A DNA stretch of 64,000 nt from Hemerocallis citrina (taxonomy: Eukaryota; Streptophyta; Magnoliopsida; Asparagales; Asphodelaceae): positions 247,455,818-247,519,817 of the forward strand of contig CM030364.1 of NCBI GenBank assembly GCA_017893485.1. Reading direction: 5' to 3'. The notes beneath the pieces were generated by a model that had not been told where the DNA came from, did no database searches, and saw only the letters and a program-made list of their open reading frames with translations. Both the position numbers and the translations under genes were made by a program. Positions 3,771 to 60,655 of the stretch are shown piece by piece (positions within the stretch are counted from its first letter, which is position 1; the number at the start of each line of letters is the position of its first letter).

Positions 3771-4128
3771 TCTTCTGTTGTGCACCACCTATGGTGCACA
3801 CGGCGTGTGCACTCGGCCTTCCCGCCTTCGTATCGACGATCCGAACCGTTCACATTGATCTAAACATCTAAATTAGTCTAAATATGTAAAATCAAATCAT
3901 TTGAAATTCATTTGCCCATCCATTGAAGTGTTACAAAATTCTATGGCTAAAAATTATTATTTTTATAGTCATATGATGGATGGATAAATGAATTTCAAAT
4001 GATTTGATTTTACATATTTAGACTAATTTAGATGTGTAGATCAATGTGAACGGTTCGGATCGCCGATACGAATGCGGGAAGGCCGAGTGCACACGAGTGC
4101 ACACGGAGGCGTGGTGCACAATGGAAGA
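3771..4128. mobile_element. Foldback/MITE-like element with about 154-bp inverted arms
   Basis: The left arm (3771-3924) and right arm (3975-4128) are near-perfect inverted copies with a spacer of about 50 bp. Both contain GTGCACTCGGCCTTCCCG, the CCGAACCGTTCACATTGATCT block and AAATCAAATCATTTGAAATTC. It lies between AT microsatellites directly after the Helitron end, so its target duplication cannot be told from the AT run. A transcript would fold into a long hairpin. Confidence 0.8.
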
Positions 4129-4411: not shown

Positions 4412-5632
4412 CCCCTCCCCACTATTTCTCTCTCCCCGCTTCTTTCTCTCTCCCCGACTCTCTCTCCCTCTCTCATTCTCCCTCCTCTGTTTCTTCAAAC
4501 CCAAACAGAGCACGCTCACCCCCCTAATCTTCATCTTCTTCCTTTGCCTCCCTTCGCCTGCGCTCCCTCGAGCCACCACTACTGCTCCACCACCGCTCGA
4601 CTACCCCGACCATCACCCCGTCGACTCCCCCTGCCTCCGTAACCCAACCGCAGCATCAACTCCGTCGCTCGCCCCACCTTGCAGCAACCGCACCTCGCCA
4701 CCGCGCACACCATCCTCACCTCTAGAGCACCCTCTTCCTCCGCTCGACTGTCGCCTCCACCATCGACCTCCAGTGCCGTTCCAAAGCCCCTGCCATCACC
4801 GCCTCTTCGCCTCGTTGTCAATGCCCCGTCGCACTGCTCTTCCTCCACTTTGCCACCCTGCTCGCCGCCTTGTCCACCACAGTCCCTGCAACCCTCCTCG
4901 TCGCCGCCTCCCAGTCGCCACCGAACTCTCGCCCTCTCCAACCATCCCGACTGCCTCCTTCTCCGCCATCCCAAGTCCCTGATGACTGCGCTCCCGAGCC
5001 TTGCCGTCGACAATCGCACTACACCCTCATTGCCGCAACGACCACCTCGCCGCTCGAGCCACCCCCAGCTGTAATACCCTAAACTTTCATTTTAATCAAA
5101 ATATTGATTTTCACGTGTTGTGCACGTGCAAATTTCATGTGTACATTTATTTATTTATTTTTATATATAAAATTTCATTTTTATAGTATGAACAATTATT
5201 TTCTTCCTTTATTTTTCTAAAAGCCTATTTCATAAAGCCTAAACAATTATTTTCTTAGTTGAGCCCACTTTAATAATTCTTTATTTTATTATTCTTTTGG
5301 CCCACAAGCCTAAGCCCACTAATTGTGAAGCCCACAAATTTAATTAATCAATTAAATGGTCACACTTGTCATATAGACACAAAATGTGAACAATTTGATT
5401 AATTAAAATTATACAAACTTCAAATAAGGGTACTAGGGGGCATATGCATGCACGTAGTGTGCAATGCACACCATTTTGGAGGTCGGTTTGTGCATGAAGT
5501 GATGGGGAGTGGGTGTGTGTGCATGAGTAGTTATGTGAGTGTGGGTGGTTGCTACAACTTTCCCTCCTATCCTACCCATCCATTCTTTAACTATCTAATG
5601 AATCCTAGCCCTCCAATCCATCCTAGAATTAG

Positions 5633-5640
5633 TATAAATA
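5633..5640 (+). promoter_or_regulatory. TATA box of S2
   Basis: TATAAATA is directly followed by a C tract (5641-5650). S4 has the same arrangement on the minus strand. Confidence 0.6.
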
Positions 5641-6733
5641 CCCCCCCCCTCCCCTATCTACATGTATTCTACACTAAGAGATCAATGAAAGAAGAAAACT
5701 ATATTGGAGATATATATTAGTGTGAATGTGAGTAGTGTGTGTGTCCCTACCATTGGATGCCGGCCATCATTCCCCACACAAGGAGCTCTCGGTTTGACAA
5801 GGAAGCAAGGAGAAGGAGGTTCTTTTGCACCGCAATCTAGGAGGAGAAGGCACTCTCTCGCATTCTAGGGACTCTAGGGGCTTTAATTGGCTTTTTCTTC
5901 AAAGAGGTGGGTGTTTCTCATGACTTCTAAGATAGAAATCATGTTAGGAATGAACTGAATTGTTATTAGAAAGTAACTAGTTGAAATGAAATTCATGCTT
6001 GCCTAATTAGAGAAGAACTGATAAACTAGTAGATGTATGTTAATTTGATTGCTAGATTTATTTATTATGAGTAAAAGTGAATGTTCTCATTGCTTCTAAT
6101 GATAGTATGCATACTAGGTATGTTTTAATGCAATTATGTGAATTAACTAGTAAAAGGTTAGAACCATGTTTGTTGATTAAAGTATTAAAGTAGAACGATA
6201 TATTAGAGATGAATTGATGGAATAATTTATTAAGAGATGATTGTTAATTGTTGTAGTAGAATTCTCCATTGTTATATGTGCCATATGAGTATTAGAATAT
6301 ATGGAAGAATGTATTTTTGCAAACAAATAATTGAATGCATCATGTGTAAATTAGTGGATAAAAATATAAGTTTTATTCATTAAGAAAGATGATTTTGTGT
6401 TCTAAAAACATCATAGTTGTCAATAAATAAGAGAACATTATTGTAGTGATTTTGTGTGGGAAACTATCTTTAATTATGAAACAATATGCTTTAGTTTTCA
6501 AATGTCGAAATTGTGTTTATGGAATACAAACTAAGGCTAAAATATATGTTTTTAAAGTGTTAAAAATACTCTTAAAAATACTGGTTACTATAGAATTGAA
6601 TGTATCTTCATTCTGGAAATTTTTATTTTCAAAAGAGGAGAAAAGAGACATTTTTTGTTTTGAGAATTTTTGAATTATAGTTATGAACAGAGAGCAAGAT
6701 CAAAACCTATTTTAATTATTTTCTAATCGATAT

Positions 6734-6810
6734 GTCCACTTAGACCAATTGGTCGGCAATACCTTCGGTCGCTACAGTAAGGGGGAGGTCTCGGGTTCGA
6801 TACTAAGGCT
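6734..6810 (+). promoter_or_regulatory. tRNA-like module 1 in S2 (A box + B box)
   Basis: An A-box-like TAGACCAATTGG (6741-6752) lies about 42 nt before a B-box-like GGTTCGATACT (6794-6804). The spacing matches a Pol III type 2 promoter. The T-arm pairs poorly, so it is not a working tRNA gene by eye. Confidence 0.45.
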
Positions 6811-6884
6811 TTTGTTTTATTTTTTTGTTAAAAACCCAAATTGCCGAGAATGGATACACAGATATTATAACCCATGGTTTAAAC

Positions 6885-6960
6885 GTTCGGCGGCTTTGGC
6901 GCGTTGGTCTTGTGCGCTGTCTGTTTCACCGCTGGTTGTGGGTTCGAATCTGGGTGGGGG
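6885..6960 (+). promoter_or_regulatory. tRNA-like module 2 in S2
   Basis: A B-box GGTTCGAATCT (6941-6951) is preceded by an A-box-like TTGGCGCGTTGG (6896-6907) about 34 nt upstream. The A box is weak and the T-arm is imperfect. It sits about 90 nt after module 1, as the second of a pair. Confidence 0.4.
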
Positions 6961-7761
6961 TTTTAGTTTAGAAAAAATGTTTTTTTGAGGATTTTTGATT
7001 AAATTGAGTTTTTAAAAACAGAATAAAAATTGGAAAAATTAGGGATTAATTACTGAAAAATTATTAGAACTTTATAAGAAAATTTATATAACTTTTGATA
7101 AAGTGTGATTAAGAAATTGGGATTTTTGCAAAAAAGGACTTCTTTTTGAAATTAAATTGTCTTTTTAAATAAAAGAAAAATAAATGAAAATTTTGAGTTA
7201 TAAAAGATGAAAAATTAGTAATGAGGAATTTTTCGAAAGTGTGCTTGATGCGATTAATTGGACTTTTATTTTGTGCTTGTAGTAAGATTTGGAAATGAAA
7301 ATAATAGTCTTGTGGAATACATGAATTATTGATTACTACTAGTTGAAATTTATTCTTACCTATAAATTGCACGTGAAATTAAACTATTGTTTGTGATGAT
7401 TTATGAAAGATGTGAATACATGAATACTATTCTTATGAAATATGAATTGTGATTAATCATGAAAAGACCTTATGAGTATGAAAAGCTCGATATTGAAATT
7501 ATGAGTTGAAATTGAGAATTAGGGTATAGCCAAGCCTTATACCGGCAATAAAGGAAATGTGGAAATGATATTTTGAAATAAGAAGACCAAGGTTTAGGTC
7601 ATGTGAATTAAATGAATAAGACCGGTATAATGGAAGTGCTACACTCTAAGGGTTGATTTTATTCATGATTCAATTAAACTAAGGATTAGATACATAGTGA
7701 AGATGTGATGAAAGTAAGAGAAAAACATTGAGTACGAGGGCCATTGGATTGGCGGCGTGAG

Positions 7762-7925
7762 AGTATTCACAGGATGTCCCATGATGAGTCATGATAGGGC
7801 GTGGATACTGCTCCAGAGTACCATCCCGGTGGCGACGCTCGTGGGGTGTTTGACGACTGCGGGTGGTGTCATGTCTATGGTAGGAGCTGAATTACCACAG
7901 GATGCCTGCATGATGAGTCATGTGA
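7762..7925 (+). promoter_or_regulatory. Pair of repeats carrying ATGAGTCAT (bZIP/GCN4-like) in S2
   Basis: CACAGGATG followed by a palindromic ATGAGTCAT occurs twice (7784-7792 and 7913-7921), about 129 bp apart. S4 has the same pair. TGAGTCA is the core site of plant bZIP factors such as the GCN4-motif binders; binding here is an inference. Confidence 0.35.
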
Positions 7926-8286
7926 CAGTGCATTGGGATTCCCTCCAGGGCGCCTAGACATGAGTTCGTGGGTCAGAAAACATCTAGGATACTTACCGTA
8001 ATTACAGTAGTAGATTAAGTCATGATGAGAGATTGAACCCTACAAGATGAAGAACGGTTAAGGGTTTGCCCTCAGGCCTATGTCGTATGGGCTGCATAGA
8101 CTCTGAACAAGTGCGCATTAGTGTCATATAATACAATAATTGCATTAAGGACTAAGTGCACATTCACAATATGGCATCAATAGGATAGTCCCTTTAGCTT
8201 TGTTTGTGAACAAATTTGTGGTTTGCTAAGTATTATGAATCGTTATACTGTTTCTAGCATAGAGAGGATGGCTGTGTATAATATTT

Positions 8287-8306
8287 CGTTAGTTGAATGA
8301 ACTGAC
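8287..8306 (+). other. Conserved small hairpin near the 3' end of S2
   Basis: GTTAGTT-gaatg-AACTGAC can pair over 7 bp with one G-T wobble. The same place in both T1 LTRs and in S4 also folds, with different bases. Confidence 0.5.
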
Positions 8307-9061
8307 ACGCCCACAGTTTTATATGCAGGGTAAAGATGCTTGACACAATTGAAGTATACATGCTGCTCAAGATTGATTTAAATGTTGTTTTATGTAAATT
8401 ATTGTAAATTTGCTTCCGCTGTGACAATGTACAAGTGTAATGTAACTCTAATGAAAGAAAAGTTTTTATTCCCTTATAAAATTGTACGAAAGAAGTGTAA
8501 AGATCCTGTGGAACTTCGAATTCAGTTGTATTTTGGAATTCGGGGTGTTACACCAGCACTCCTTGTAACACCCCGCAAAATTGGAAATGAATTTTGCCCT
8601 TGTGTGTTATGCATGTGTATTTTGTACCGTTACTAGTAATATTTGTAACGTATTTTTATTACGTATTTTGACTTCCGACTATCTATGCATTTCCTGTATT
8701 TTTATTAAAAGTGTATTTTTCAAATTTGCATGTGTGATGCACGTGCTATTTTCCATCCTCATATTATTATTCTCAATTATCTATTTCTTTGCATGAACAA
8801 GTTTTAATTAGCCTTCTTCTGATCCATGGACTTAAAGTAAATTCTAGCCCATTAGATTAAATTAAAATAGAGCCCATGTATTAAACCCAGCAATTATAAC
8901 CTAATTTAAGTTAGCATACACTAATACATGGCAAGTTACAAATTTTAATATGTAGATATGTGAATATTTATATATGCATAATATAGTGTACGGCTTATAT
9001 AATAAAAGTGATTAGTGTAATAAGTGGGTGTTAATTGTATAGTGTACAGCATATGGTAATG

Positions 9062-9092
<31 letters not shown>

Positions 9093-9449
9093 TCACGTGC
9101 TTCAAAGAGCATAATGCTATGATTATATATATGGTGATGGTATAATAATGGAATAATGTGTAGGTGTAAAAGGGTCCCACGGAAGATGAAACACAACAAG
9201 TTATGCATGCAGAGCATGTTGTTGTTTCATGCCGTTGACGTGGCAAGGGGAAGTGGGGCTCTCACGTGTGCAGGTGAGGAGATGGCCGGATTTGGATTGG
9301 AAGGAGAGAGAGTAAATGAAAGTTAAGTTTTGAAGAGTGGGCAGATAAAAAGTTAGGGGTTTTGGGAGTTTAGAACATGAAGAGATGGAAGAATTAAAAT
9401 GAGAAGTTATTAGGTGGGAGATTTTGCAATATAGTCCCTAATCTAGACC

Positions 9450-9457
9450 TATAAATA
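9450..9457 (+). promoter_or_regulatory. TATA box of T1 5' LTR
   Basis: TATAAATAGCCACC is followed by CTTCTCTTTTCACACC and a purine-rich leader. The 3' LTR keeps the same sequence at 20486. Confidence 0.65.
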
Positions 9458-10224
9458 GCCACCATTTCTCTTCTCTTTTCACACCAAAAAGCAAAACAAA
9501 CTAAGAAAGAAAGAAAAGAAAGAGAGTAAGAGAGTTCCATTCTTGCTAGGAGAATGAGCCATTGCTAGGAAGAGAAGCCTTACTAGGAGCTAGGAGTCTT
9601 TGGAGCTAGAAGTGGTGTTCTCCTTTCTTTTCATTGTTCAAGCTTCACAAAAGGTGGGTGTTCTCTCACTTTCAAAATTTTTAGAATTTGCATGCTAATG
9701 AAAGTAAATGAGTAATTTTGAAGTGATAAAATAGAATAAACTATACTATGATTGTGGTGAGATTAATAGTGAATCATGTCATGTTTGATGAATTAACATT
9801 AATCATGAAGTAGTTAATGAGAAAAGAAGCAATCAATCATTTTGCAATTTCACTAATAATCATGAATGAAGAACTTATTGGTTGCATGAATGATGGTTGG
9901 AGATTTCCCTTTTGTTAAGCAAATGAATATATTAGTTTTGTAAAATCAGTACTATTGAATTTATATACAAGACATAGAATTGTGTTACTTGGAAAGATTG
10001 AAATTTCATGTTTAATTAGTGGAAAAGAAACTATTTGGAAGCTATTTCATTTCTCTAAAATATGATTTATAATTCTATAGTTTACTATTGGAAAGTGAAT
10101 TCAAATTTTTTTTGAATTCGGTCTAACAAAAAGATTAGAGTGAATAGAAAAATCGAATTTTTTTGAAAGAAAAGAGATAAAAGAAAGTTTGAACAAAAAG
10201 CTAAGAATTAGATTCTTAGTCGTC

Positions 10225-10300
10225 AGGCACAGTTGGCCTAGTGGTTGAGTGTTGTGCTGGCCTTCTCTGTGGTCCTGGGTTCGAAACCCGTTAGGCCCCA
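10225..10300 (+). promoter_or_regulatory. tRNA-like module 1 in T1 5' LTR
   Basis: A box TGGCCTAGTGG (10234-10244) sits inside TTGGCCTAGTGGTTGAG, close to the TGGCCGAGTGGTTAAG of Ser-type tRNAs. B box GGTTCGAAACC is at 10278-10288, with GGG/CCC pairing of the T-arm. The module ends in GGCCCCA. The acceptor stem is at best 3 bp, so it is tRNA-like and not a tRNA gene. Confidence 0.6.
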
Positions 10301-10380
10301 ATTATTTTTCTGTTGTTTTATTTTATCCAAAGGCCCGCAACTATAGTGTACAAAATGTATCGTTTAAGAAACCGAACACT

Positions 10381-10462
10381 AGGCACGTTTGGCCTAGTGG
10401 TTGGCGCTGGTTTGCTTGGGCGTTGGCTCAGTTAGTCGGGGGTTCGAAACCCTAGACCGACA
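10381..10462 (+). promoter_or_regulatory. tRNA-like module 2 in T1 5' LTR
   Basis: It has the same A box TGGCCTAGTGGTT (10390-10402) and the same B box GGTTCGAAACC (10441-10451). An outer GTCGG/CCGAC stem encloses the B-box arm. It starts about 156 nt after module 1. Confidence 0.6.
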
Positions 10463-11866
10463 TTCTCATTTTTTTGGTGTTTCAATCCATTTAATGAGTC
10501 TTATGACATCTAAAAATTTAGGGAAGAATCCTAGTGCTATAAAATATGATGGAGAATTTATAAAAAATAGTTTTAAAGATTTTCCTTGTTTATTGAAAAG
10601 CAAAATAGACATTTGAGATCAAAATGAGACATTGTTTTGTACTAAAAATGAGACTTTGTGTTGTGCTAAAATGAGACATCGATTTTGTGCTAAAAAGGAG
10701 CAAAATGAGAAATGAAAATTGAGCTTTGTCAGGAATAAATTATTAATGAGATTTATTGGTAGAATGAGAATAAATTATCTATGTGAATAAATTTCTCTTG
10801 ATGTGATGATTCACTTATGCGAATTTAGAGTACTTGGTATATGTTGAAATATGAATTGGTTATTTGCACTTAAGTTATTAAAGAGATTGATGATGGATGA
10901 AAATTTGTTCATGAAAAATAATTGTTGTTATAAATCATGAGTAGTATTAAGATAAGATTTGAGACAATTGTGAATAGGTTGAAGATAAGGATAATCTAAA
11001 TTTAAGACATGATTATTAAAGGGTATGTGTACCCATGATTCTTGTGCATGAATTGTTGAGTTTTGGAGTTAGTAAAACCTCGTTACCGGAAATGTTGAAA
11101 TGAAAAGAATTGAGATATAATTTTGAGATATGATTGTGGATCTATCTCGGTATTTGTGATTATGACCGATAGGAGGTAAGACTAATTCTAGGCTTGGAAA
11201 TCTATTCATGTCTTGAACTAAATAATTAGGAACATAAGTGAAGATGTAGTAAACCTGGGCAAACTTAAGTGGGTTGCTCTATATAGTCGGCGGTGGATCT
11301 CCGTGGCTATAGACCCAGTTGGTGGACTGTGGTTGCTCTGTGGGAGACTTGTTTTATTTTGAAATCTGGGATTATGAGGACGGGTCAATGGTGGATTCCA
11401 GGATCTTGAGTAATCGGGAGGATTGTTTTTATTTACTGTCTCCACTGTATATACGTATCTCGTGGCTAGATGGTCACTTGCGGGATGATTCGCACGATAT
11501 AATAGCCAGAGAGGCTGGGATCTGTTATAATTGCCAGAGAGGCTGAGATCCATGTCCGTGGAATGATCTAAACCTTGTTTTATTACTGGGTAGTTTCATG
11601 GCGAGGGATCGAACCCTTTATTGTGGAGTACGTAGGCGCTTGCCCTCGGACCTATATAGTGTGGGATGCATAGAATCCGAACAAGTGTGCATTAGTGTCA
11701 TCCTAGAATAAAATATGTGTATTAGGCATTAAGGTGTGGCATACACTTATATATTTAGCGTAGTCACATTTCTACACTTTATTGTTCATTCAACTGTTGT
11801 GATTTTTATTAAAGTAATGAGATCATTATATGTACGACATAAAGAGGATAGCCGAGTATAATATTT

Positions 11867-11888
11867 CGTCAGTTGTAATCAACTGACG
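11867..11888 (+). other. Conserved hairpin near T1 5' LTR end
   Basis: CGTCAGTTG-taat-CAACTGACG is a perfect 9-bp stem just before CTACAGTCTTACATGCAGG. It may lie near the RNA 3' end or R/U5 border; that role is inferred. Confidence 0.6.
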
Positions 11889-12140
11889 TACCTACAGTCT
11901 TACATGCAGGTAATGGAAGTTCATGAAGCAATAAAATGGATATGCTGATACTATTTTGTTTAAAGATTTTGTATTTATTTCATTGTAATTTTTTATTCTT
12001 CTGCTGTGTAAACAAAGTGTACTGTAACTCTGATGTATTATTGAAAAAGTTTTAAATTTTCTAGTAAAATTGTACGAAGTGAAGTAAAGATCCTGTGGAA
12101 TCTCGAATTCGGCTTTATTTGGAATTCGGGGCGTTACAGA

Positions 12141-12152
12141 TGGTATCAGAGC
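12141..12152 (+). other. T1 primer binding site (initiator Met tRNA)
   Basis: TGGTATCAGAGC lies 2 nt after the 5' LTR. It is complementary to the 3' end of plant initiator Met tRNA. Confidence 0.9.
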
Positions 12153-12644
12153 AGGCTTCGTAAGTAGTACAAATTTATAAGGAACGACACCCTAGAGTGG
12201 ACATTAGAAGTGTAAGTTTCAGTTTATAAAGATTTAAATGTAAGTAATTTATATTTGTGTTGCTTTATACACTGATGTTTTCTCTTCCTATTAGATGGCT
12301 GGAGTCGTGAATGAAGTAGTTATTGACTTCCATTCATGATTCTCCTCATATACATTGATGTGAGATTGTATGCGAGCATGTTATTCCTCCGTATCAGAGT
12401 GGCGCAGTTGAAGCGTGGTTGGTTGACCCTACATTCACAATACACGTAGACACACTTCCCTTTCAAATTATTTTTTTCGTGAATTTTATCGTAGTACTTT
12501 TCAACATTCAATATTTTTCAAATAAATATTTTTCTTATACTATTAAACACCCATCGACTATGTTTCGCTTTATTGCATTGTTTTCCAAACTATTCCGCAA
12601 TTAAAGACTTAATTGATTTTTCTTCTATCTAATGTTTTCCCTAA
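12153..12644 (+). other. T1 interior, left part
   Basis: It is non-coding. An ATG at 12296 opens only 14 codons before a stop, which could be the remnant of a gag start. No zinc knuckle, protease or RT motif is present. S3 interrupts it at TSD CCTAA. Confidence 0.6.
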
Positions 12645-13189
12645 TGTCACGCCCTGCTTTCCAAAAAGAATACGGAATACGGATACGGGACAAAAGCCCA
12701 GCGAATGATTTTCATCATCCATAAGCTATTCAAGAAATCTTTACAACATTCACAAGAATCATCAGAGTCGGAAGCAAAAGAATCAACCACATGCACATAT
12801 GAGCCAAAATACCAACAAGAATACTTGAAACCAAATATATAATCTCAAATAGTCATGATTTGAATAAAACAATTATCTTGAGTCACATTGCCTAAATACA
12901 AGAATAAATCCAAGTACAAGAATACAATATTGTTCAAGCAAACTACAAGAAATAATAATAATAAAATGCAGCACTAATACTTCATGTCTCTGATACCATC
13001 TGGAACTTGTTCTCCAAAATCTGCAATTCAACAAATGCAGGAAAGAGGAAAAGAGATAAACAAGTACCCGTCAATTGCAAGTTACGGACCACTTATAATG
13101 TAGGATACAAGCACATGGGAAAACTAACTAGCAACATGGTATAAGTATGATGTCAACATAAACAACTAGTATGGCAAAGTGAACAAGTG

Positions 13190-13625
13190 TAAATGGCATG
13201 AATCAAGTGTCAAGTAATCAAGTATCATGTAAACATGCATCAAGTATCAAGTATCATGTAATCATGTATCAAGTGTCAAGTTTCAAGTCTCAAGTATCAT
13301 GTTGTCAAGTATCAAGCAAGCATGTATCATGTTCAAGTATCATGTATCAAGTCTTGTAGTGATTACTATCTAGGTAGCACTTCATGCAGCCCACCTTATA
13401 TGGTTGCTACAACAAACAGTTTCACTTTAGATTTCAAAGTGGACCATAAAGGACAGTATACTCTAGGACAAGTCAAATAATCGAGCTCCATGCTCCAAGT
13501 ATCATGTATCATGTAATCACGTGTCAAGTTGTGCAAGTGGCAAGTATCGTGTCTTACGTGAAAGTATCAAGTAATCACGTGTCAAGTATCATGTCTCAAG
13601 TAATCACGTAAGATTAGTGGATCCC
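13190..13625. repeat. Degenerate short-period repeat in S3 (AAGTATCATGT-type)
   Basis: Many copies of CAAGTATCATGTA, CAAGTGTCAAGT and ATCACGTGTCAAG fill the stretch. It is split by a non-repeat insert of about 130 bp (13,350-13,490). It looks like slippage of a 7-12 nt motif. Confidence 0.7.
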
Positions 13626-15514
13626 CTTCTGAGTACACGTTTCTGAATTATCCACTATTAGATCTGTCCCTTAAACCCCGGCTTGGTTATTTATTATTAA
13701 TTTCAAACAAGCATGTATATGTGCAAGATATATCAAGAATAACATAGCATGATCATGTGACAAGTGCAAGTTGCAAGGTAAACATGTACGAGTGCAAGAT
13801 ATCTCATAAAAGACTAAATTTGACAAATCTCAAGTTCAGGACAGCAAGACCATACTGTAGTAAAACAGTAATTTCCGGTGTTACAAACATCCAAATCTGG
13901 ATCCGTCAAAGGATCTGAAAAATAAACTTCCACACGAATCCAGCGAATATAAATAAGTTATATATTAATTCACAAAAACATAGCTCAAAACTAATTTGAA
14001 TACAAAAGTAAGTTCAGCCAGAAATCAGGAAGACGAATTCAAGAATAGGAAAACAACATGAAAAAACATTAAATAAATCCATAAAAAAATGGGGTATTCC
14101 CCTATATGTCCAGTATCAAAATATAAAGTTTCAAAATTTTCCAGTAAAATTTGATCAGTCATCAAAAATAAGAAAACATCAATAAACGATAGTTTGGCAA
14201 ATATGGAATTCCCAACACTGATGTACAAAAACTATGATATCTTGCAACCAGTGAAACGAAATCCAATTCTTACAAAGGGATATGAAAATAGATAAAATAT
14301 ACTAACTTTCATATTCACAAACATTTTTCATACAGTAAAAAAAATCAGGGTAAAAATACGATTCTTTACATAACATCGAGCAAAACACAGCAAGTATTGT
14401 TTTCATAAACGAGCATGAAACGACATATAAAACTCATCAATAAAATTCACAAAAATTCTGGGTAATCCCTAACTAGATAAAGAAACACTGACCAAAGTTT
14501 TGGATCATAATAATATATGTAGAATCAGTATCAAAATCATTTAGTGATCAAAATCATCGAAAATCAAAATCTGGAAAAAATTGACACCTCTGTAGTAAAA
14601 CAGTCATAACTCACACATACGAAAACAAAATCGAGCAAGGTTAGAGGGGTTTGAAAATAGACGAAATTCTCTGAAACTCATGTTTTATACTGGAACTAAG
14701 ATACTGACTTCAAGACAGTCCAAAACAGCAAACAAAACAGATCAGCGACAAAATACATATTTTTTCCTTTAACAACTCAACATATATCATACAAAATTTG
14801 TTCAAAACACAACCAAACATCAAAATCGAGTCTACCAAGTGTCCAAACATCATGCGTTAGGGTATCCAGCATGTCCACACCAAATATATCACATGGGTCT
14901 CAACCAAATCACGAATTCTCACAAAAGTCTCACATACATGATCAAATCAAGAACGGGTAAAACTTAAGTTATTCCATGTCATATTGTGTCGTGAGGCAAC
15001 TATGGTCAAGTTTTCACAATAGAGACAAAATTCATCAAACATAACACAAACAAGAGTCGTCTCTAGACCCAACTACACTATAGGTGGTATTTTTGACTTG
15101 TATCATACAAAGAAACTTGAGTACAAGTTACTTGTCTTAACCGAAGATGAAGAACGACGAAAACCAAGACTAACGAGCAAAACCCACAAAAGAAAATCCA
15201 CAAGTGAATGAATCCAAGCAAACTTGAGCGAAAATCTCCACACGAACAAACTGCACAAAGAGAGATCAAGAGAGAGGGATGGCGATGGTGGCTTGCGACC
15301 ATGAGAGAACACCAAGCGAGAGAGGGGTCGAGGTGCAAAAGGGTTGTATGATGGTGGTGTTCGGAGTGTGAAGGGTGGTCGGCCAAGAGGGGAAGAGGAG
15401 ATGGGGGCTCGGGTTATCGGGGTGTGCACATAGGCCGGAGGGGGGGTGGCTCTGCCTGGAGGGGGTTTGGGGTGTGCGGCGCAAGCAGCGGGAGAGAGAG
15501 GGATTCCGGGTTGA

Positions 15515-15578
15515 GGGAGGCTAGGGTTAGGGTTTGTGATTAGGGTTTAGGGTTAGGGGGATTAGAGATGTATATATA
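15515..15578 (-). promoter_or_regulatory. S3 promoter: TATA box and telo-box cluster
   Basis: On the minus strand TATATATA is followed within about 50 nt by several AACCCTAA units. Telo-boxes (AAACCCTAA) are known near the start of many plant housekeeping genes, so this LTR may use a similar promoter. They could also be simple-sequence expansion. Confidence 0.45.
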
Positions 15579-15997
15579 TGAGGGGATTAGGGTTAATGGG
15601 TAATTCGGTTGTGGGTAATTAAGAGTAATAGTAGGATTTGAATTAATGGGTTTCAAATAGGATACAAATAGGATTGTGGATTTTAATTGGTTTTGGTAAT
15701 CTTATTAGGGATCAACAATAGGATTGAGAAAAGGATACAACCAACCACCACCACAAGCACCCAAGAAAATAAAAATAAAGAGAACGAGACCAAAATGAAA
15801 GAAAGAACAAAATAATGAAGAACGAAACAAAAGAGACAACCAATCAAACACAAAGAGCTCAAAATGAAATAAAATGAATATATATATATTGAAAACAACT
15901 CCAATATACGGTTCAGAAAGGATACAAGAGAGAAAATATACCAAAATGAAAAATACACTCAAAAATACACAAAAAGAAAAACAGGGGTTACACCTAA

Positions 15998-16265
15998 TAG
16001 TAGTTTTGTATGAAAATTTCTTTCTTTATGGTTATATTTATTTCCCTATGTAAGTTTTCTCGTTTCGTTCTTATAAAATTTTGATACTCATAGTTTTCTT
16101 ATAAAAAGTTTGTCTTATTTTTCCTTAATATTTATTTTTAAGCTACAATTATTTCCTTAAAGTTTGCTGTTTTTTAAATTCAATATGATATTTTCTTGGC
16201 GTGTACAAAATACAATCTTTACCCTAGCGAGTTCCGGGGATGGAACTACTCTAAGGGGGGGAGAG
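15998..16265 (+). other. T1 interior, right part, with polypurine tract at 16253-16265
   Basis: It is AT-rich and non-coding, then TTCCGGGGATGGAACTACTC and the purine run AAGGGGGGGAGAG touching the 3' LTR. The run is the expected plus-strand primer. Confidence 0.8.
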
Positions 16266-16599
16266 TGTATCACCCCGCAAAATTGGAAATGATAATTTTG
16301 CCCTTGTGTGTTATGCACGTGTATTTTGTACCGTTACTAGTAATATTTGTAACATATTTTCATTAAGCATTTTGATTTCCGACTATCTATGCATTTTTCG
16401 TATTTTTATTAAAAGTGTATTTTTCAAATTTGCATGTGTGATGCACGTGTTATTTTCCATCCTCATATTATTATTCTCAAGTATCCATTTCTTTGCATGA
16501 ACAAGTTTTAATTAGCCTTCTTTTGATCCATGGACTTAAAGTAAATTCTAGCCCATTAGATTAAATTAAAATAGAGCCCATGGATCAACCAGCAATTAT
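16266..16599 (+). repeat. T1 3' LTR, segment 1
   Basis: It starts TGTATCACCCC and matches 8564-8895 of the 5' LTR. S4 breaks it at ATTAT. Confidence 0.9.
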
Positions 16600-16858
16600 T
16601 GTAACTCCCCGAATCCCAAATACACTGAATTCGAGATGTTCTGCAGGATCTTTCCACTTCCTTTAGTACAATTTTACAAGGAAATTTGAACTTTTCACTT
16701 TACATCAGAGTTTACATAAAACTTTACACTTTACATTACACAGCGGAAGTAAAATTTACAACAAATGAATAAATGTACAACAACATTGCATAATCTTTAG
16801 TCATCTGTTCCTCTTTAATCTTTATCATGTCATTTACCTGCATATAAGACTGTGGGTA

Positions 16859-16878
16859 CGTCAGTTTATTCAACCGAC
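16859..16878 (-). other. Conserved hairpin near S4 end
   Basis: On the minus strand CGTCGGTT pairs with AACTGACG over 8 bp with one G-T wobble, at the place of the T1 hairpin. Confidence 0.5.
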
Positions 16879-17229
16879 GAACATTATATACGGCCATCCT
16901 CTCTATGCCAGAAATAGTATAACTTATTTTCCATATTTGACAAACACAAACTTGTCACATACCAAACTAAAGGGACTACCCTATTGATGTCGTGTTGTGA
17001 TTGTGCACTTAGTCCTTAATGCAATTATTTATATTAGATGACACTAATGCGCACTTGTTCGGATTCTATGCGTCCCATACTACATAGGTCCGAGGGCAAG
17101 CCTCTTAATCGTTCTTCATCTTTGTAGGGTTCAATCCCTCGCCATGACTTAATCTACTACTGTAACTACGGTGAGTATCCTAGATGATCTATGAGTAAAG
17201 CACGTGTACAGAAAACCTGGAGGGGAATC

Positions 17230-17398
17230 CCACGCCATGTCTTGACTCATCAAGCATGCATTCTGTGGCAATTCAGCCTCCTTCATGGCACACGATCCTC
17301 TTGCAGTCACCAAACATCCCACAAGCATGGCTAAAGTCCGATCATTACTGAGTTGTGCCCACGCCATGTCTTGACTCATCAAGCATGCATTCTGTGGC
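17230..17398 (-). promoter_or_regulatory. Direct 41-bp repeat with bZIP-like core in S4
   Basis: Two copies, 128 bp apart, contain CCACGCCATGTCTTGACTCA and CATGCATTCTGTGG. TGACTCA is the TGAGTCA core of the S2 pair on the other strand. Between them the sequence is unrelated. Confidence 0.45.
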
Positions 17399-18142
17399 TC
17401 ACACACCCGCACCGTAAACTCTAGTTCTCATACTCGTATTTTCCTCTCACTTTCATCACGTCTTCACTATGCACTATTCTTAATTTAATAGAATCATGAA
17501 TAAAATCAAAGCTCTAGAGTTAGCCTCTCCACTAAACCGGACTCATTCATTTATTCAAACATGACCAACCTTGATCTTTCATTTCAATATTTCATTTCAT
17601 TCCTTTCCAAATGCCGGGGGAGACTTAGTTACTCTTTTGTTTCAATTCCAATTCACAATTTCCAATTGAGCATTTCTAACTCATAAATTCATATTCATAA
17701 TCAAACAGATTTCTTTTTCAATAGCAAGATCTCTGAATTATTCAATAGTCCATAATCATACATGGAATTTATATACTTCATCAATTATTAATTTCACATT
17801 GCAATTCACATCACTAACGAATATTCACATTTCATATTTTTCACACTATTCTCAAATGAGAATAATTCACATCCATCACACAATAAAATTTCTCTCTTTT
17901 ACTATATTAATCTTCTAATCCTTCATTTCAAATTCTTTTTGCAAGATATAATTTCACAACAATAAAAATATAGAACCATAGTTCTATTTACACATTTTAT
18001 TCTCAAATCATATTTTATTTCATGCAAATAATTCCCAAATTATTTTTATAAAGTCCTACATGTTTTTACAAGAATAGTCATATTTTTTCTATAATTTTTT
18101 TGATCACAAAAACACTCAAAAATATGTTTTTCTCAACACTGC

Positions 18143-18220
18143 CGAAACCAAGATTCGAACCCAGAACCACGAAGAACACAGCCGACAGCACAAACCACTA
18201 GGCCAAAGGTGCTAGACGGT
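18143..18220 (-). promoter_or_regulatory. tRNA-like module 1 in S4
   Basis: On the minus strand TTTGGCCTAGTGGTT (A box 18195-18205) precedes GGTTCGAATCT (B box 18151-18161). The A box is identical to that of T1 although the surroundings differ. Confidence 0.55.
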
Positions 18221-18297
18221 ATAAGTACGGCTGAGAGCTTTAAATGCTCTCGGCTGCAGACTTAAATTCTTTTCCCAAAAATGCAAAAGTATGTTAC

Positions 18298-18370
18298 TAA
18301 GGGGATTCGAACCAGCAACCTCAGAGAAACAGGCCGCGCGCTCCGACCACTTGAGGTACGTGCTCAGGTT
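18298..18370 (-). promoter_or_regulatory. tRNA-like module 2 in S4
   Basis: On the minus strand TACCTCAAGTGG (A box 18347-18358) precedes a fully canonical B box GGTTCGAATCC (18303-18313). A small hairpin-rich spacer separates it from the other module. Confidence 0.55.
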
Positions 18371-19291
18371 GTCAATTACAATTCGAAATTCTTTTTAAAA
18401 CAATTCTCTCTGTTATTAAAAACCATTCGATATTCAACAAGTCCTCATTTCATTTTGCTTCTATAGAAATTACTGTAAAATTCCAGATTAATTATTTCTC
18501 ATCTAATTTACATATCAGTATGAAAAAGTAATTTTTTTCAACAATTAAAACATATTTTCATACAATTAATTCGAATTCTACATTATAACTACCCCATTCT
18601 TTTCATTTCGACATTTCTTAACCATTAACACTACTAATCCCTTAATTAGCAAACTTCACATTAATTCTCTATTTAATCTTTTACCAAACATACAAAATTA
18701 TATCTTAATTCATTTATTTCAATGAAACACAAGGATTTATTCAAACACACAAAGTAGCATTGTCAATCTACTAACTTTTTGTATATAATTTGTGTTGTAG
18801 CTAATGAAACTATCTTTAATAATTCATGGCCATAATTAATTCACTCACAATTTAGCCTTTACTAATAGAACCACATACACTTTCACATCCACATTTCAAT
18901 CAATCCATAGGTCATTTTTATCAATCAAATGCGTACTCTTATTAATATTTTTCATGCATCATTTTCATTCACATCTAGCATATATTCCTATTTAGAAATA
19001 TAGAAAATTTACCCACCTTATATGGAGAGACTACACTAGCAACCTCCTAGACGAATGTCCTTGCAATGAGAGTGCTCCTCCTCCTAGTCGACGCGCACAC
19101 AAGCCTCCAAGCACACAACCCGTGAGCTCCTTCCCTTGGTAGTCGGCCTCTCCTTTTCTAGTTGATGCAAGCACAACTCCCACACACAACTCAATCTTTT
19201 AACTCACTAAAATAACTACTAGATAATGTAATTTAGACTATAGGTTTGGAAGAATTAGTAAGCACAAGAATAACTAGCCAGGGGGGGGGGG

Positions 19292-19299
19292 TATTTATA
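19292..19299 (-). promoter_or_regulatory. TATA box of S4
   Basis: TATAAATA on the minus strand runs into a 10-nt C tract, exactly as in S2. Confidence 0.6.
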
Positions 19300-19900
19300 C
19301 TAAAAATCAAAGAGAATGGAGGGCTAGGATCAAGTAATTGGTTATAAGATGGAGGGCTAAGATTGAAGTAGGAGTTAGAAACAAATGGTTTAGATTTAAG
19401 GAGGAGTTATACTAACCACCCATAATCAAGTAACCACCACACCATGATCCCACTCAAATTTTTGGTTTCCCTCCAAGATTACAACCAGCCTAGCTTTCTT
19501 TGTGCATATTGCACGTGTACGTGCAATGCACGTGCATGCAATAGCCTCCAAAAATTGTACATTTTATTTTATATAAAAATAAACTTTAATTTTTTATTCT
19601 ACATTACAAGTCATATTTAAAAATAAATTAACTAATGGGCTTTAGTTTATGGGCCAAAAATAATTATTTTAAAATAAAATAAATGAATTACATTTTTGGG
19701 CTTTTTAAAAAGAAAAGGTTTTTTGTCTAATTGAAAGAAGGCTTTATAGAAAAATAATTACAAGCACATATTTAAAAATCTATACTCATCATGATGAAAA
19801 TATCATAACATTTAATTCAACAAAAAAATATTGCACGTGCACACTACGTGCAAAATAAAATAATTTTTCATTAAATGAAAAATCAGGGCATTACAATTAT

Positions 19901-22060
19901 AGCATAATTTAAGTTATCATACACTAATACATGGCAAGTTACAAATTTTAATGTGTATATATGTGTATGTTTATATATGTATAATATAGTGTATGGCTTA
20001 TATAATAAAAGTGATTAGTGTAATAAGGGGTGTTAATTATATAGTGTACAACATAGATAGTAATGTGGAGATTGGGGGGGGGGGGGGGGGGGGGGGGCTC
20101 ACGTGCTTCAAAGAGCATAATGCTACGATCACGTGCTTCAAAGAGCATAATGCTACGATTATATATATGGTGATGGTATAATAATGGAATAATGTGTAAG
20201 TGTAAAAGGGTCCCATGGGAGATGAAACACAACAAGTTGTGCATGCAGAGCATGCTGTTGTTTCATGCCGATGATGTGGCAAGGGGAAGTGGGGCTCTCA
20301 CGTGTGCAGGTGAGGATATGGCCGGTTTTGGATTGGAAGGAGAGAGAGTAAATGAAAGTTAAGTTTTGGAGAGTGAGGAGATGAAAAGTTAGGGGTTTTG
20401 GGAGTTTAGAATATGAAGAGATGGAAGAATTAAAATGAGAAGTTATTAGGTGGGAGATTTTGCAATATAGTCCCTAACCTAGATCTATAAATAGCCACCA
20501 CTTCTCTTCTCTTTTCACACCAAAAAGCAAAACAAATTAAGAAAGAAAGAAAAGAAAGAGAGTAAGAGAGTTCCATTCTTGCCAGGAAAATGAGTCATTG
20601 CTAGGAGGAGAAGCCTTACTAGGAGCTAGGAATCTTTGGAGCTAGAAGTGGTGTTCTCCTTTCTTTTCATTGTTCAAGCTTCACAAAAGGTGGGTGATCT
20701 CTCATTTTCTAATTTTTTAGAATTTGCATGCTAATGAAAGTAAATAAGTAATTTTGAAGTGATAAAATAGAATAACCTATACTATGATTGTGGTGAGATT
20801 AATAGTGAATCATGTCATGTTTGATGAATTAACATTAATCATGTAGTAGTTAATGAGAAAAAGAAGCAATCAATCATTTTGCAATTTCACTAATAATCAT
20901 GAATGAAGAACTTATTGGTTGCATGAATGATGGTTGGAGATTTCCCTTTTGTTAAGCAAATGAATATATTAGTTTTGTAAAATCAGTACTATTGAATTTA
21001 TAGACAAGACATAGAATTATGTTACTTGGAAAGATTGAAATTTCATGTTTAATTAGTGGAAAAGAAACTATTTGGAAGCTATTTCATTTCTCTAAAATAT
21101 GATTTATAAGTCTATAGTTTACTGTTGGAAAGTGAATTCAAATTTTTTTTGAATTCGGTCTAACAAAAAGATTAGTGTGAATAGAGAAATCGAATTTTTT
21201 TCGAAAGAAAAGAGATAAAAGAATGTTTGAACAAAAAGCTAAGAATTAGACTCTTGGTCGTCAGGCACAATTGGCCTAGTGGTTGAGTGTTGCGCTGGCC
21301 TTCTCTGTGGTCTTGGGTTCGAAACCCGTTAGGCCCCAATTATTTTTCTGTTGTTTTATTTTATCCAAAGGCCCTCAACTATAGTGTACAAAATGTATCG
21401 TTTAAGAAATCGAACACGTTTGGCCTAGTGGTTGGCACTGGTTTGCTTGGGCGCCGGCTCAGTTAGTCGGGGGTTCGAAACCCCAGGCCGACATTCTCTT
21501 TTTTTTTGTGTTTCAATCCATTTAATGAGTCTTATGACATCCAAAAATTTAGGGAAGAATCCTAGTGCTATAAAATATGATGGAGAATTTATAGAAAATA
21601 GTTTTAAAGATTTTTCCTTGTTTATTGAAAAGCAAAATAGACATTTGAGATAAAAATGAGACATTGTTTTGTACTAAAAATGAGACTTTATGTTGTGCTA
21701 AAAATGAGAGATCGATTTTGTGCTAAAAAGGAGCAAAATGAGAAATGAAAAATGAGCTTTGTCAAGAATAAATTATTAATGAGATTTATTGGTAGAATGA
21801 GAATAAATTATCTATGTGAATAAATTCTTATTGATGTGGTGATTCACTTATGCAAATTTAGAGTACTTGGTATATGTTGAAATATGAATTGGTTATTTGC
21901 ACTTAAGTTATTAAAGAGATTGATGATGGATGAAAATTTGTTCATGAAAACGAATTATTGTTATAAATCATGAGTAGTATTAAGATAAGATTTGAGACAA
22001 TTGTGAATAGGTTGAAGATAAGGATAATCTAAGTTTAAGATATGATTATTAAAGGGTATG
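19901..22060 (+). repeat. T1 3' LTR, segment 2
   Basis: It continues the LTR after S4 and matches about 8,900-11,030. It has a shorter G tract (about 20074-20097). The 29-30 bp unit ATCACGTGCTTCAAAGAGC is duplicated near 20,098-20,157 and explains the length difference from the 5' LTR. TATAAATA is at 20486. G1 interrupts it at GTATG. Confidence 0.92.
21264..21494 (+). promoter_or_regulatory. tRNA-like pair in T1 3' LTR
   Basis: Module 1 (21264-21338) and module 2 (21414-21494) repeat those of the 5' LTR. TGGCCTAGTGG and GGTTCGAAACC are unchanged in both, with substitutions between them. The second B-box arm improves here (CCCC in place of CCCT). Confidence 0.6.
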
Positions 22061-22632
22061 TGTTACCGCTAAATCTGGTGTGGAGGCAAACAGATAGAAT
22101 TTGTGGATTCTTTGGGGTATCGAATAGCCAAACTTGAAACCTTTCCAACGGAGTTTGACCGTGATCTGCCGCCGTCAACCTGCAAAAAGTGCGAAACACC
22201 GGGGTTGATCCCGGTGATGCACCCTCCGACGCTCAAGTCAGTAATCAGAAAGATTATGAAAGAGCTTTTGCTGGCAAAAGATTGATTACCTCTTAATAGT
22301 GGGGGATGGGGGGTATTTATATCCGCCTTAGGGACCAGTTTCGGGATAAGATCAAATCCTTATTTCCCAGGTGAATGGATAGAAGTGAATCAGGACCGTT
22401 GATTAGGTATAATCATAAACCCTAATTCTACCCAGCTGGACCGGGTTCTCTTGCGAGTTAAAACCCGCACCCAGTTGGGATGGATCCGCTTGTGGGTTAT
22501 AGGGCCTTTGGAAAAAAGAGCCAGTACCCGCTTCAGACCCGTTTGTAGGTGAAATTACCATTTTACCCCTGATCTTTAAGATTCGCATCCGATTTGGACG
22601 GTTCTGATTTAACCCTATTTTTAGCCATATCA
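22061..22632 (-). repeat. G1 3' LTR
   Basis: It pairs with 40584-41152. It contains CACCGGG-gttgat-CCCGGTG, a 7-bp hairpin. Confidence 0.92.
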
Positions 22633-22650: not shown

Positions 22651-23325
22651 AAGACTGAGTTTAATCAGCCTTTGAGGAGTAGTTTCACTGTTTTAATGGC
22701 CTGCGGAGTTGTATCGGAGTCCAAATGAGGGGTGTCGAGTCTTTGTATAAGGTATTATGGTGATTTTCAGAACTAGTTGCATGCTCAAGGTTATTCTTGA
22801 GCTCTCCTGAACTTTTAGTGATTTTTCTTAATTTTTATCTATTTTTTGAACCATTTATTTAAATTTGCGAAGCGGTGATTTATTGTTCGGGGTCCTTAAT
22901 TAATAATTCTAAGCAATAATTATTTATCCAGGGGCTCAAAAATATTTTCCCAAATTTATAATTATTTTTTAGAATTTTTAATTAATTTTCCTGAATTTTT
23001 AATCATTTTTTTTGCAATTTTTAAATAAATAATTCGATTTTAATAAATAGAAATTAATTTTTAATTCGATTTATGACCGGGCGCGTTCTGGGCCCTTCAT
23101 CAGCATAGGGTGAAAATTTTGGGGAGATCTAATGCTTGTGGTCGCTTGAAGGAGTCCCTCTCTTCGTTAGGTGGTTTAGTTGCTTCGGCATCGTTGTCGA
23201 CCCCTCTCAATCGCATGTTATTAAGGAGGCCGAGGTCTAGGGAGGTTCGGCATCCTCTGTCGAAGAGCAGAGATACTTTGGCGAGGCTACAGGCGCTGAG
23301 AGGGGGTCTGGCGAGCCTTTGCCGA
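22651..23325 (-). other. G1 3' untranslated region, non-repeat part
   Basis: It is AT-rich to about 23,080, then GC-rich and grading into the 68-bp array. G2 has a counterpart at 48,960-49,490. I see no gene. Confidence 0.6.
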
Positions 23326-23329
23326 AGTT

Positions 23330-24410
23330 CGGAGTGGGTTTTTCTATGTTTGAGGGTCGGTGCCAAGAGCACTCGGCAAGGTATGACGAGGTCCAAGAGG
23401 ATTTTTTTCTCGTTTGGGTGTCGGTGCCAAGAGCGCTCGGCAAGGTGTACCGAGGTCCGAGGGTGAGGACTTTTTCCGCATTTGGGTGTCGGTGCCAAGA
23501 GCGCTCGGCAAGGTGTGCCGAGGCCCAAGAGTGAGGATTTTTTCCCTCGTTTAGGCGTCGGTGCCATGAGCACTCGGCAAGGCGTGCCGAGGTCCAAGAG
23601 GATTTTTTTCTCGTTTGGGCGTCGATGCCAAGAGCGCTCGGCAAGGCGTGCCAAGGTCCAAGAGTGAGGATTTTTTCCTCGTTTGGGCGTCGGTGCCAAG
23701 AGCGCTCGGCAAGGCGTGCCGAGGTCCAAGAGTGAGGATTTTTTCCTCGTTTGGGCGTCGGTGCCAAGAGCGCTCGGCAAGGCGTGCCGAGGTCCAAGAG
23801 TGAGGATTTTTCCCTCGTTTGGGCGTCGGTGCCAAGAGCGCTCGGCAAGGCGTGCCGAGGTCCAAGAGTGAGGATTTTTCCCTCGTTTGGGCGTCGGTGC
23901 CAAGAGCGCTCGGCAAGGCATGCCAAGGTCCAAGAGGATTTTTTCTTCGTTTGGGCATCGGTGCCAAGAGGGCTCGGGCAAGGCGTGCCGAGGTCTAAGA
24001 GGATTTTTTCCTCATTTTGGCATCGGTGCCAAGAGCGCTCGGCAAGGCATGCCGTGGTCCAAGAGTGAGGATTTTTTTCCTCGTTTGGGCATCGGTGCCA
24101 AGAGCACTCGGTAAGGCCTGCTGAGGTCTAAGAGGATTTTTTCCTCGTTTGGGCATCGGTGCCAAGAGCGCTCGGCAGGGCGTGCCGGGTCTAAGAGTGA
24201 GGATTTTTCCCTCGTTTGGGCATCAGTGCTAAGAGCGCTCGGCAAGGCCTGCCGAGGTCTAAGAGAATTTTTTCCTCGTTTGGGCATCGGTGCCAAGAGC
24301 GCTCGGCAAGGCGTGCCGGGTCCAAGAGTGAGGATTTTTCCCTCGTTTGGGCGTCGGTGCCAAGAGCGATCGGCAAGGCATGCCGATGTCCAAGAGTGAG
24401 GATTTGATGG
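23330..24410. repeat. Tandem array, 68-bp (some 61-bp) unit, about 16 copies
   Basis: Each unit reads like TTTTTTCCTCGTTTGGGCGT, GGTGCCAAGAGCG, CTCGGCAAGGCGTGCCGAG, GTCCAAGAG(TGAGGA). CTCGGCA-aggcg-TGCCGAG is a 7-bp hairpin. Shorter units lack GTGAGGA. Long open frames on both strands here come from the repeat period and are not genes. Tat-lineage 3' regions are known to breed such satellites. Confidence 0.92.
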
Positions 24411-41152: not shown

Positions 41153-41157
41153 GTATG

Positions 41158-42267
41158 TGTACCCATGATTCTTGTGCATGAATTGTTGAGTTTTGGAGTT
41201 AGTAAAACCTCGTTACCGGCAATGTTGAAATGAAAAGAATTAAGATATAATTTTGAGATATGATTGTGGATCTATCTCGGTATTTGTGATTATGACCGAT
41301 AGGAGGTAAGACTAATTCTAGGCTTGAAATCTATTCATGTCTTGAACTAAATAATTAGGAACATAAGTGAAGATGTAGTAAACCTGGACAAACGTAAGTG
41401 GGTTGCTCTATATAGTCGGCGGTGGATCTCCGTGGCTATAGACCCAGTTGGTGGACTGTGGTTGCTCTGTGGGAGACTTGTTTTATTTTGAAATCTGGGA
41501 TTATGAGGACGGGTCAATGGTGGATTCCAGGATCTTGAGTAATCGGGCGGATTGTTTTTATTTACTGTCTCCACTGTATATACGTATCTCGTGGCTAGAT
41601 GGTCACTTGCGAGATGATTCGCACGATATAATAGCCAGAGAGGCTGGGATCTATTATAATTGCCAGAGAGGCTGAGATCCATGTCCGTGGAATGATCTAA
41701 ACCTTGTTTTATTACTGGGTAGTTTCATGGCGAGGGATCGAACCCTTTATTATGGAGTACGTAGGCACTTGCCCTCAGACCTATATAGTATGGGATGCAT
41801 AGAATCCGAACAAGTGTGTATTAGTGTCATCCTAGAATAAAATGTGTGCATTAGGCATTAAGGCATAGCATACACTTACATATTTAGCGTAGTCACATTT
41901 CTACACTTTATTGTTCATTCAACTGTTGTGATTTTTATTAAAGTAATGAGATCGTTATATGTACGACATAGAGAGGATAGCCGAGTATAACATTTCGTCG
42001 GTTGTAATCAACTGATGTACCCACAGTCTTACATGCAGGTAATGGAAGTTCATGAAGAAATAAAATGGAAATGCTGATACTATTCTGTTTAAAGATGTTG
42101 TATTTATTTCATTGTAATTTTTTATTCTTCTGCTGTGTAAACAAAGTGTACTGTAACTCTGATGTATTATTGAAAAAGTTTTAAATTTCCTTGTAAAATT
42201 GTACGAAGTGAAGTAAAGATTCTGTGGAATCTCGAATTCGGCTTTATTTGGAATTCGGGGCGTTACA
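41158..42267 (+). repeat. T1 3' LTR, segment 3
   Basis: It resumes after G1 and matches about 11,030-12,138. The hairpin at 41996-42017 (CGTCGGTTG-taat-CAACTGATG) keeps pairing through two G-T wobbles relative to the 5' LTR. Confidence 0.92.
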
Positions 42268-60435: not shown

Positions 60436-60655
60436 AGATTTTTTGTTTTCCCAGTTTTGCATTTTGTCTAAGTGTAACGAGTCGGCATTGTAGTTTTTGC
60501 TTTTGGAAGTCTTGTAGCTTAGTTGTAAAGAAGATGCCGCTTTGTAATTGTCTCCCCACACTTAATCGAAATGATGTTCGTTTTTCTTTTTTGAACTTGT
60601 GCATTTTTGAAACCCTTCTGTTGTTGTGTTACTCATGACTATCTTTAGCGTGCCG
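60436..60655 (+). other. 3' flank of the G2 antisense gene
   Basis: It is T-rich and similar to 28,083-28,300 of G1, as a 3' UTR would be. Nothing else is seen. Confidence 0.4.

Follow-up and report, generated by a model that had tools for sequence, protein, structure and literature searches.

What are the paired, transfer RNA (tRNA)-like promoter modules found in several giant long terminal repeats (LTRs) of a plant genome, and what has kept them there? The question is raised by a 64,000-nt stretch of Hemerocallis citrina DNA (assembly GCA_017893485.1, CM030364.1, forward strand, 247,455,818-247,519,817; hereafter the window), in which an initial annotation had reported two modules, each with a tRNA-type A box and B box, at the same place in four LTRs: the 5' and 3' LTRs of the retrotransposon T1 and the solo LTRs S2 and S4. 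Based on the comparison of these modules with those in the rest of the genome (3.78 Gb, 701 contigs), we consider it reasonably probable that they are an ancestral pair of type-2 (tRNA-gene-type) RNA polymerase III (Pol III) promoter units, kept by selection in large-LTR families, with transcription and function predicted from the sequence.

Paired modules in the LTRs of the window

All eight modules announced by the initial annotation were located (Table 1), two in each LTR and at one common place, although the start points that it had given lay slightly off the boxes. Their distance from the TATA box (784-1264 nt) agrees with the 0.75-1.3 kb that had been claimed. The B boxes lie at 48-54% of the LTR length (S2, T1 5' and S4), and the two B boxes of one LTR are 147-163 nt apart. 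In standard tRNA genes the A and B boxes are spaced by 44-45 nt; this spacing, counted from A-box start to B-box start, is found in five of the eight window modules, the others having 51 (T1 module 2, in both LTRs) or 53 (S2 module 1). A run of at least four T (T4) follows 5-28 nt past the B box in all eight, and none contains a T4 internally. Apart from some exceptions, the sequences contain the features of a type-2 Pol III unit: an A and a B box, spaced as in tRNA genes, and an oligo-T terminator.

A scan of the window allowing at most one mismatch per box (in which the A-box start given is sometimes not the best one) returned nine matches, eight of them within these LTRs, whereas 30 shuffles made in 2-kb blocks averaged 1.5 and never exceeded 4. 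When all B-like sites (B box with at most one mismatch) were ordered on total mismatches, ranks 1-6, the best combined A and B matches in the 64 kb, were taken by the modules of T1 and S4.

Two resemblances were observed among the modules themselves: T1 module 1 is nearest to S4 module 2, although S4 module 1 is the one at the corresponding position, and the two T1 modules resemble each other. Judging from these sequences, modules have likely been exchanged or duplicated (T1 modules 1 and 2, S4 module 2). Additionally, a third B-box-like motif, GGGTTCRATCYC, lies antisense to the LTR near the 3' end of all four LTRs; no T4 occurs in the 30 nt that follow it, and the block around it is conserved too.

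Conservation between families and occurrence in the genome

The genome loci behind the second-module, cluster, box, tRNA-search, conservation, SINE, splice-like-site and gag-pol results all come from a single contig (C1) and were located through the boxes. Clustering at 80% identity of 30 loci with a B-box pair, together with S2, S4 and T1, gave 14 family representatives (28 modules), one per cluster; eleven of them came from the B-box-pair search, whose pattern did not include the A box. In these representatives, 18 of the 28 modules have an A box (no more than one mismatch) 43-45 nt before the B box; among control positions the same holds for 5 of 1,836. A T4 is found within 31 nt past the B box in 24 of 28 (26% in the control) and is absent between the boxes in 26 of 28 (54% in the control). 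The A boxes have mean pairwise identities of 0.74 and 0.73, compared with 0.47 and 0.53 for the spacers and 0.54 for background columns; the still higher values of the B boxes (0.93 and 0.92) were not counted, because these boxes were ascertained by the search. Between families, the boxes have therefore not decayed at the rate of their flanks, in keeping with the earlier claim that boxes and pairing persist across diverged LTRs. When S4 is compared with T1 and the final 550 bp of the LTR are set aside, the strongest near-diagonal match is a module (78% identity, E = 9e-8).

Exact B boxes paired at a distance of 125-155 nt occur 4,279 times in the genome, against seven occurrences of the reversed pattern. 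Chance or base composition, for which one could cite the B-like words elsewhere in the LTRs (such as the antisense copy), is refuted as a source of the modules by this ratio and by the 18 of 28 against 5 of 1,836 A boxes, and we give it a negligible probability. Among the matches listed, at least 19 same-strand couples of module pairs lie 7.4-9.4 kb apart, which matches the expectation for the two LTRs of one element. The exact pattern TGGCCTAGTGG...GGTTCGAANCC has 1,173 matches and its reverse none; part of the 1,173 are copies of a short interspersed nuclear element (SINE). A second module (at most two mismatches) is present in 14 of 20 loci picked on one module only; among the remaining six, two (L011 and L025) have a B-box pair and four (L012, L017, L024 and L028) have none at that threshold. 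We also observed three identical module matches on C1 (G000:C1:245333359, 245342453 and 245351547), spaced by exactly 9,094 bp, which probably form an LTR-internal-LTR-internal-LTR tandem array.

The modules might instead act at the RNA level, the genomic RNA forming there a tRNA-like structure that serves processing, packaging or priming. One module, in the T1 5' LTR (module 2), does fold better than its shuffles (z -2.7), and T1 module 1 has a mascRNA-like match, below threshold (14.1 bits, against a gathering score of 42.5). The second copy of the same module 2, in the 3' LTR, has a z-score of -0.07, and the scores of the eight window modules range from +1.0 to -2.7, with seven of them within 1.5 of zero; no common fold emerges, and conserved secondary structure was rejected on these scores. 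By the same scores, no stable hairpin lies between promoter and terminator, as it would in a cassette of the foamy virus type. Searches with ARAGORN or Rfam gave no tRNA in the window, and none was found in 16 module loci of the genome, nor in 14 by Rfam (loci of the SINE were likewise negative); no tRNA cloverleaf was recognised in the modules of the window or of these loci. An RNA-level role is accordingly very improbable. Between the modules, some families have a palindrome, GCCGAGAGCATTTAATGCTCTCAGC, and variants of it (L029, L030, L034, L038, L041 and L052), and a linker hairpin, GCCGAGAGC...GCTCTCAGC, is likewise restricted to some families.

SINE or tRNA-pseudogene relics, caught in an ancestral LTR and passively carried since, deserve more attention. 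The genome has a tRNA-type SINE family (six copies examined, L003-L008) whose A box, TGGCCTAGTGG, is identical to that of the LTR modules; a SINE-like spacing of about 50-54 nt is found in two of the six distinct window modules, and a SINE insertion has been proposed by Kojima as the origin of Helenus, an element with a tRNA-like sequence in its LTRs (PMC10886601). The SINE has a body after the B box, a poly-A tail in five of six copies and long flanking duplications, by eye, in four of six. In the window modules the T4 comes directly past the B box, where the body of a SINE would be expected, and neither a 3' poly-A (judged by reading) nor a target site duplication (TSD) of their own is seen. 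No flanking duplication of modules or pairs goes beyond the control: the longest repeat is 10 nt, at S4 module 1, and 31 of 600 control intervals contain one at least as long, so independent insertions, the other way in which the modules had been thought explicable, are not indicated in the window. The boxes are also kept better than spacers and flanks. Such relics might account for the origin of the modules, not for their persistence; a remote SINE or tRNA-gene origin is possible, and passive carriage as the whole explanation appears quite unlikely.

The LTR setting of the modules

In all window LTRs the TATA box is followed 200-285 nt on by AGGTGGGT, then by the modules and, about 230-240 nt before the LTR end, by TGCAGG. 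Among 20 seven-kb genome loci, AGGTGGGT lies 580-900 nt upstream of the modules in 13 (reversed sequence, 0) and ATGCAGG 0.9-2.3 kb downstream in 15 (reversed, 0; the context of one of these loci, L014, is doubtful). This splice-like pair, AG/GTGGGT and TGCAG/G, is conserved across the LTRs of numerous families and suggests a leader intron in the LTR, holding the modules and presumably spliced.

The window LTRs are 3.3-3.6 kb long. T1 (8564-42267, with the TSD CTCCT at either end) has LTRs of 3,575 bp and an internal region of 4,127 bp, in which the four open reading frames (ORFs) scanned gave no Pfam match; its primer-binding site (PBS), TGGTATCAGAGC, is presumably of the plant initiator-Met tRNA (tRNA-iMet) type. 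The 3' LTR is complete, though split by S4 and a nested element some 19 kb long. Large retrotransposon derivatives (LARDs) have long LTRs and a long non-coding internal region, and T1, the element assessed in this respect, has both. Both S2 and S4, flanked by 5-bp target duplications, are solo LTRs; their likeness to T1 lies mostly within the last 550 bp (70-71% identity), and the alignment of S2 with S4 extends further (67% over about 2.1 kb).

A coding element with such modules was found elsewhere in the genome. L032 and L033, module pairs on one strand at a distance of 8.6 kb, are taken as two LTRs; the region between them (L059) has the domain order gag, protease, reverse transcriptase, RNase H, integrase zinc finger, SH3-like domain and chromodomain. 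The chromodomain is borderline (23.3 bits, just below Pfam's 25.1), and the integrase core was not seen in L059, where the frame is cut into pieces. The assignment of the modules to gypsy-type LTRs, proposed initially, is supported by this gypsy-type gag-pol. No relatives were found in collections of viral contigs or of bacterial and archaeal contigs.

Two further repeats were observed in the window: a MITE-like (miniature inverted-repeat transposable element) inverted repeat with 120-nt arms at 3804-4095, with sub-threshold matches to microRNA (miRNA) families, and a tandem array of units of about 68 bp at three places (23320-24405, 28457-29021 and 60648-60983).

Table 1. Modules and other LTR features of the window (spacing in nt; distances of T runs counted from the B box)
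Feature	Position	Strand	Details
S2 module 1	6741..6804	+	A 6741-6752, B 6794-6804; spacing 53; T4 at 5 nt
S2 module 2	6897..6951	+	A 6897-6907 (2 mismatches), B 6941-6951 (1 mismatch); spacing 44; T4 at 9 nt
T1 5' LTR module 1	10234..10288	+	A 10234-10244, B 10278-10288, both perfect; spacing 44; TTTTT at 16 nt
T1 5' LTR module 2	10390..10451	+	A 10390-10400, B 10441-10451, both perfect; spacing 51; T7 at 17 nt
T1 3' LTR module 1	21272..21326	+	A 21272-21282, B 21316-21326; spacing 44
T1 3' LTR module 2	21421..21482	+	A 21421-21431, B 21472-21482; spacing 51
S4 module 1	18303..18358	-	A 18347-18358, B 18303-18313; spacing 45; T4 at 14 nt
S4 module 2	18151..18205	-	A 18195-18205, B 18151-18161; spacing 44; T5 at 28 nt
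Antisense B-box-like motif	11605-11615, 41734-41744, 17128-17138, 8029-8039		GGGTTCRATCYC
Putative T1 leader intron	9652..11910	+	AG/GTGGGT (match 9652) to TGCAG/G (match 11901-11910), about 2.2 kb; modules inside
S2, solo LTR	5070..8552	+	TSD CCAGC
T1 5' LTR	8564..12138	+	TSD CTCCT at 8559-8563; followed by primer site TGGTATCAGAGC
T1 internal region	12139..16265	+	no plus-strand ORF longer than 86 aa
T1 3' LTR, first piece	16266..16599	+
S4, solo LTR within T1 3' LTR	16600..19895	-	TSD ATTAT
T1 3' LTR, middle piece	19901..22063	+	holds both modules
T1 3' LTR, last piece	41153..42267	+	beyond the nested element; then TSD CTCCT

Proposed role and relation to known systems

In the mechanism that we propose, each LTR would contain two tandem type-2 Pol III promoter units, and the pair would have been inherited by several related large-LTR Ty3/gypsy families, one coding for a chromovirus-like gag-pol, as well as by relatives that lack long ORFs, T1 among them. 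Within the apparent leader intron, transcription factor IIIC (TFIIIC) would bind the boxes and Pol III would yield short RNAs of about 100 nt. Selection would keep the occupancy, or the act of transcription, rather than the RNA, because neither spacer nor fold is conserved. The most likely use would be to recruit TFIIIC and Pol III locally, so that the LTR stays open, or is bounded, when its Pol II promoter is silenced. The retention of the pair at fixed spacing, amid surroundings that have drifted, suggests that the elements employ a second RNA polymerase. More tentatively, and with somewhat less than even confidence, we would extend the proposal to a plant chromovirus lineage, coding members included, that has long carried a conserved tandem pair of Pol III units in each LTR, within its leader intron. 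Each copy, solo LTRs included, would then contribute two Pol III/TFIIIC sites to the host genome (thousands of pairs in this one), and the elements would have a further promoter system, perhaps resistant to silencing.

A closely related possibility is that the boxes are TFIIIC-only sites (of the extra-TFIIIC type), marking boundaries or nuclear positions with little or no Pol III transcription. Conserved boxes combined with an unconserved spacer and fold suit such a binding role, whereas the enrichment of oligo-T past the B box and the avoidance of T4 between the boxes would be unneeded for mere binding, and the A boxes have been retained at tRNA spacing. We regard this possibility as unlikely, though less so than passive relics.

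Several observations weigh against selected promoter pairs, beginning with the origin of the genome loci described above. At 43-45 nt before the B box, 10 of the 28 modules have two or more A-box mismatches. Some AT-rich windows downstream match the A boxes in conservation (identity 0.72-0.81), so the boxes are not the sole conserved part. The comparison of S2 with T1 gave no module match, and the S2 boxes are weak: module 1 (two mismatches) is tied with two other sites at ranks 7-9 of the window ranking, and module 2 (three mismatches) with seven others from rank 10 on. The spacings of 51 in T1 module 2 and 53 in S2 module 1 are like those of this genome's SINE. The boxes of T1 had been described as identical between its two LTRs while nearby bases differ; the identity stands (no difference in 44 box bases, the LTRs being 4.1% diverged), but it is not significant (P = 0.16), as expected for copies that drift after insertion.

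Prevalence among elements with a similar primer site speaks in the same direction. The genome has 8,813 LTR-PBS junctions fitting a general pattern (reversed, 0), and 20 GATGG-type junctions were chosen without the boxes, as a box-free estimate. At the predicted place (1.63-1.81 kb upstream), four of these 20 LTRs have a module and one has a pair (modules and pairs in the controls: reversed 2 and 0, antisense 0 and 0, complement 1 and 0). With a looser threshold, which does not discriminate, modules appear in 14 of the 20 and in 8-12 per 20 in the controls (pairs in 2 and in 0-1), and 12 of the 20 stretches match none of the module-bearing loci. Other families sharing this PBS, and other insertions, confound the sample. 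The paired modules belong to a set of families, and not to every element with such a PBS.

The initial annotation knew of no description of tRNA-like promoter pairs within giant gypsy-type LTRs. Sequences resembling tRNA in LTRs (in the short Helenus elements) and Pol III cassettes in foamy virus LTRs are known; for plant gypsy LTRs, we recognised no description of paired Pol III promoters in the literature searched, most subscription papers lying outside that search. Helenus (TRIMp3), as described in Kojima 2024 (PMC10886601), is a non-autonomous terminal-repeat retrotransposon in miniature (TRIM) of 311-1263 bp with one tRNA-like sequence in its LTRs, and the sole plant species named there is Selaginella moellendorffii. 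That screen used only TRIMs shorter than 1000 bp; "not a few" LTRs in Repbase were stated to resemble part of a tRNA, the short ones alone being followed, and it was argued that Pol III, through its weak processivity, keeps elements short, any autonomous partner having to rely on Pol II. The window elements share with Helenus tRNA-type A and B boxes within LTRs, usually without a functional tRNA (derivation from a tRNA being here a matter of sequence likeness), as well as the 5-bp TSD found in plants, the PBS and the polypurine tract (PPT). They differ in having LTRs of several kilobases rather than a short TRIM, and modules that are paired and lie mid-LTR. As for non-autonomy, the four T1 ORFs scanned gave no Pfam match, yet the L032/L033 pairs flank a gag-pol region. 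Cassandra TRIMs (565-860 bp), stated in the same source to be transcribed, also have a Pol III promoter in a plant LTR; theirs is of the 5S ribosomal RNA type and in short elements, whereas here it is of the tRNA type and in large LTRs.

The miRNA cluster of bovine leukaemia virus (BLV) is internal, outside the LTR. Among retroviruses, foamy viruses have Pol III miRNA cassettes with terminators in the LTR, several of them in some viruses, and A and B boxes in such cassettes are reported for feline foamy virus (PMC6950176 and PMC8674446). The likeness lies in A/B-box cassettes with terminators within an LTR; those of foamy viruses are in U3 and make stable hairpins, whereas the present modules lie past the TATA box, without a stable conserved hairpin and in a plant host. 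In BLV, according to PMC4992882, a type-2 Pol III promoter is active in a provirus with a silent 5' LTR and makes miRNAs; a promoter of this type is predicted here from the sequence, in LTR modules without hairpins. Plant tRNA-derived SINEs share the A/B-box head (one, in this genome, with an identical A box) and differ by their poly-A tail, their own TSDs and the body after the B box, which the modules do not have.

Conserved Pol III side units in giant LTRs, those of coding elements included, would separate the promoter from genome synthesis, and would suggest a role in chromatin or through small RNAs; as this one genome has 4,279 exact pairs or more, such elements would also supply TFIIIC sites in large number, scattered through it. 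By analogy, the present modules would work like the foamy virus and BLV cassettes minus the hairpins, and would differ from Helenus and Cassandra in size, pairing and coding capacity.

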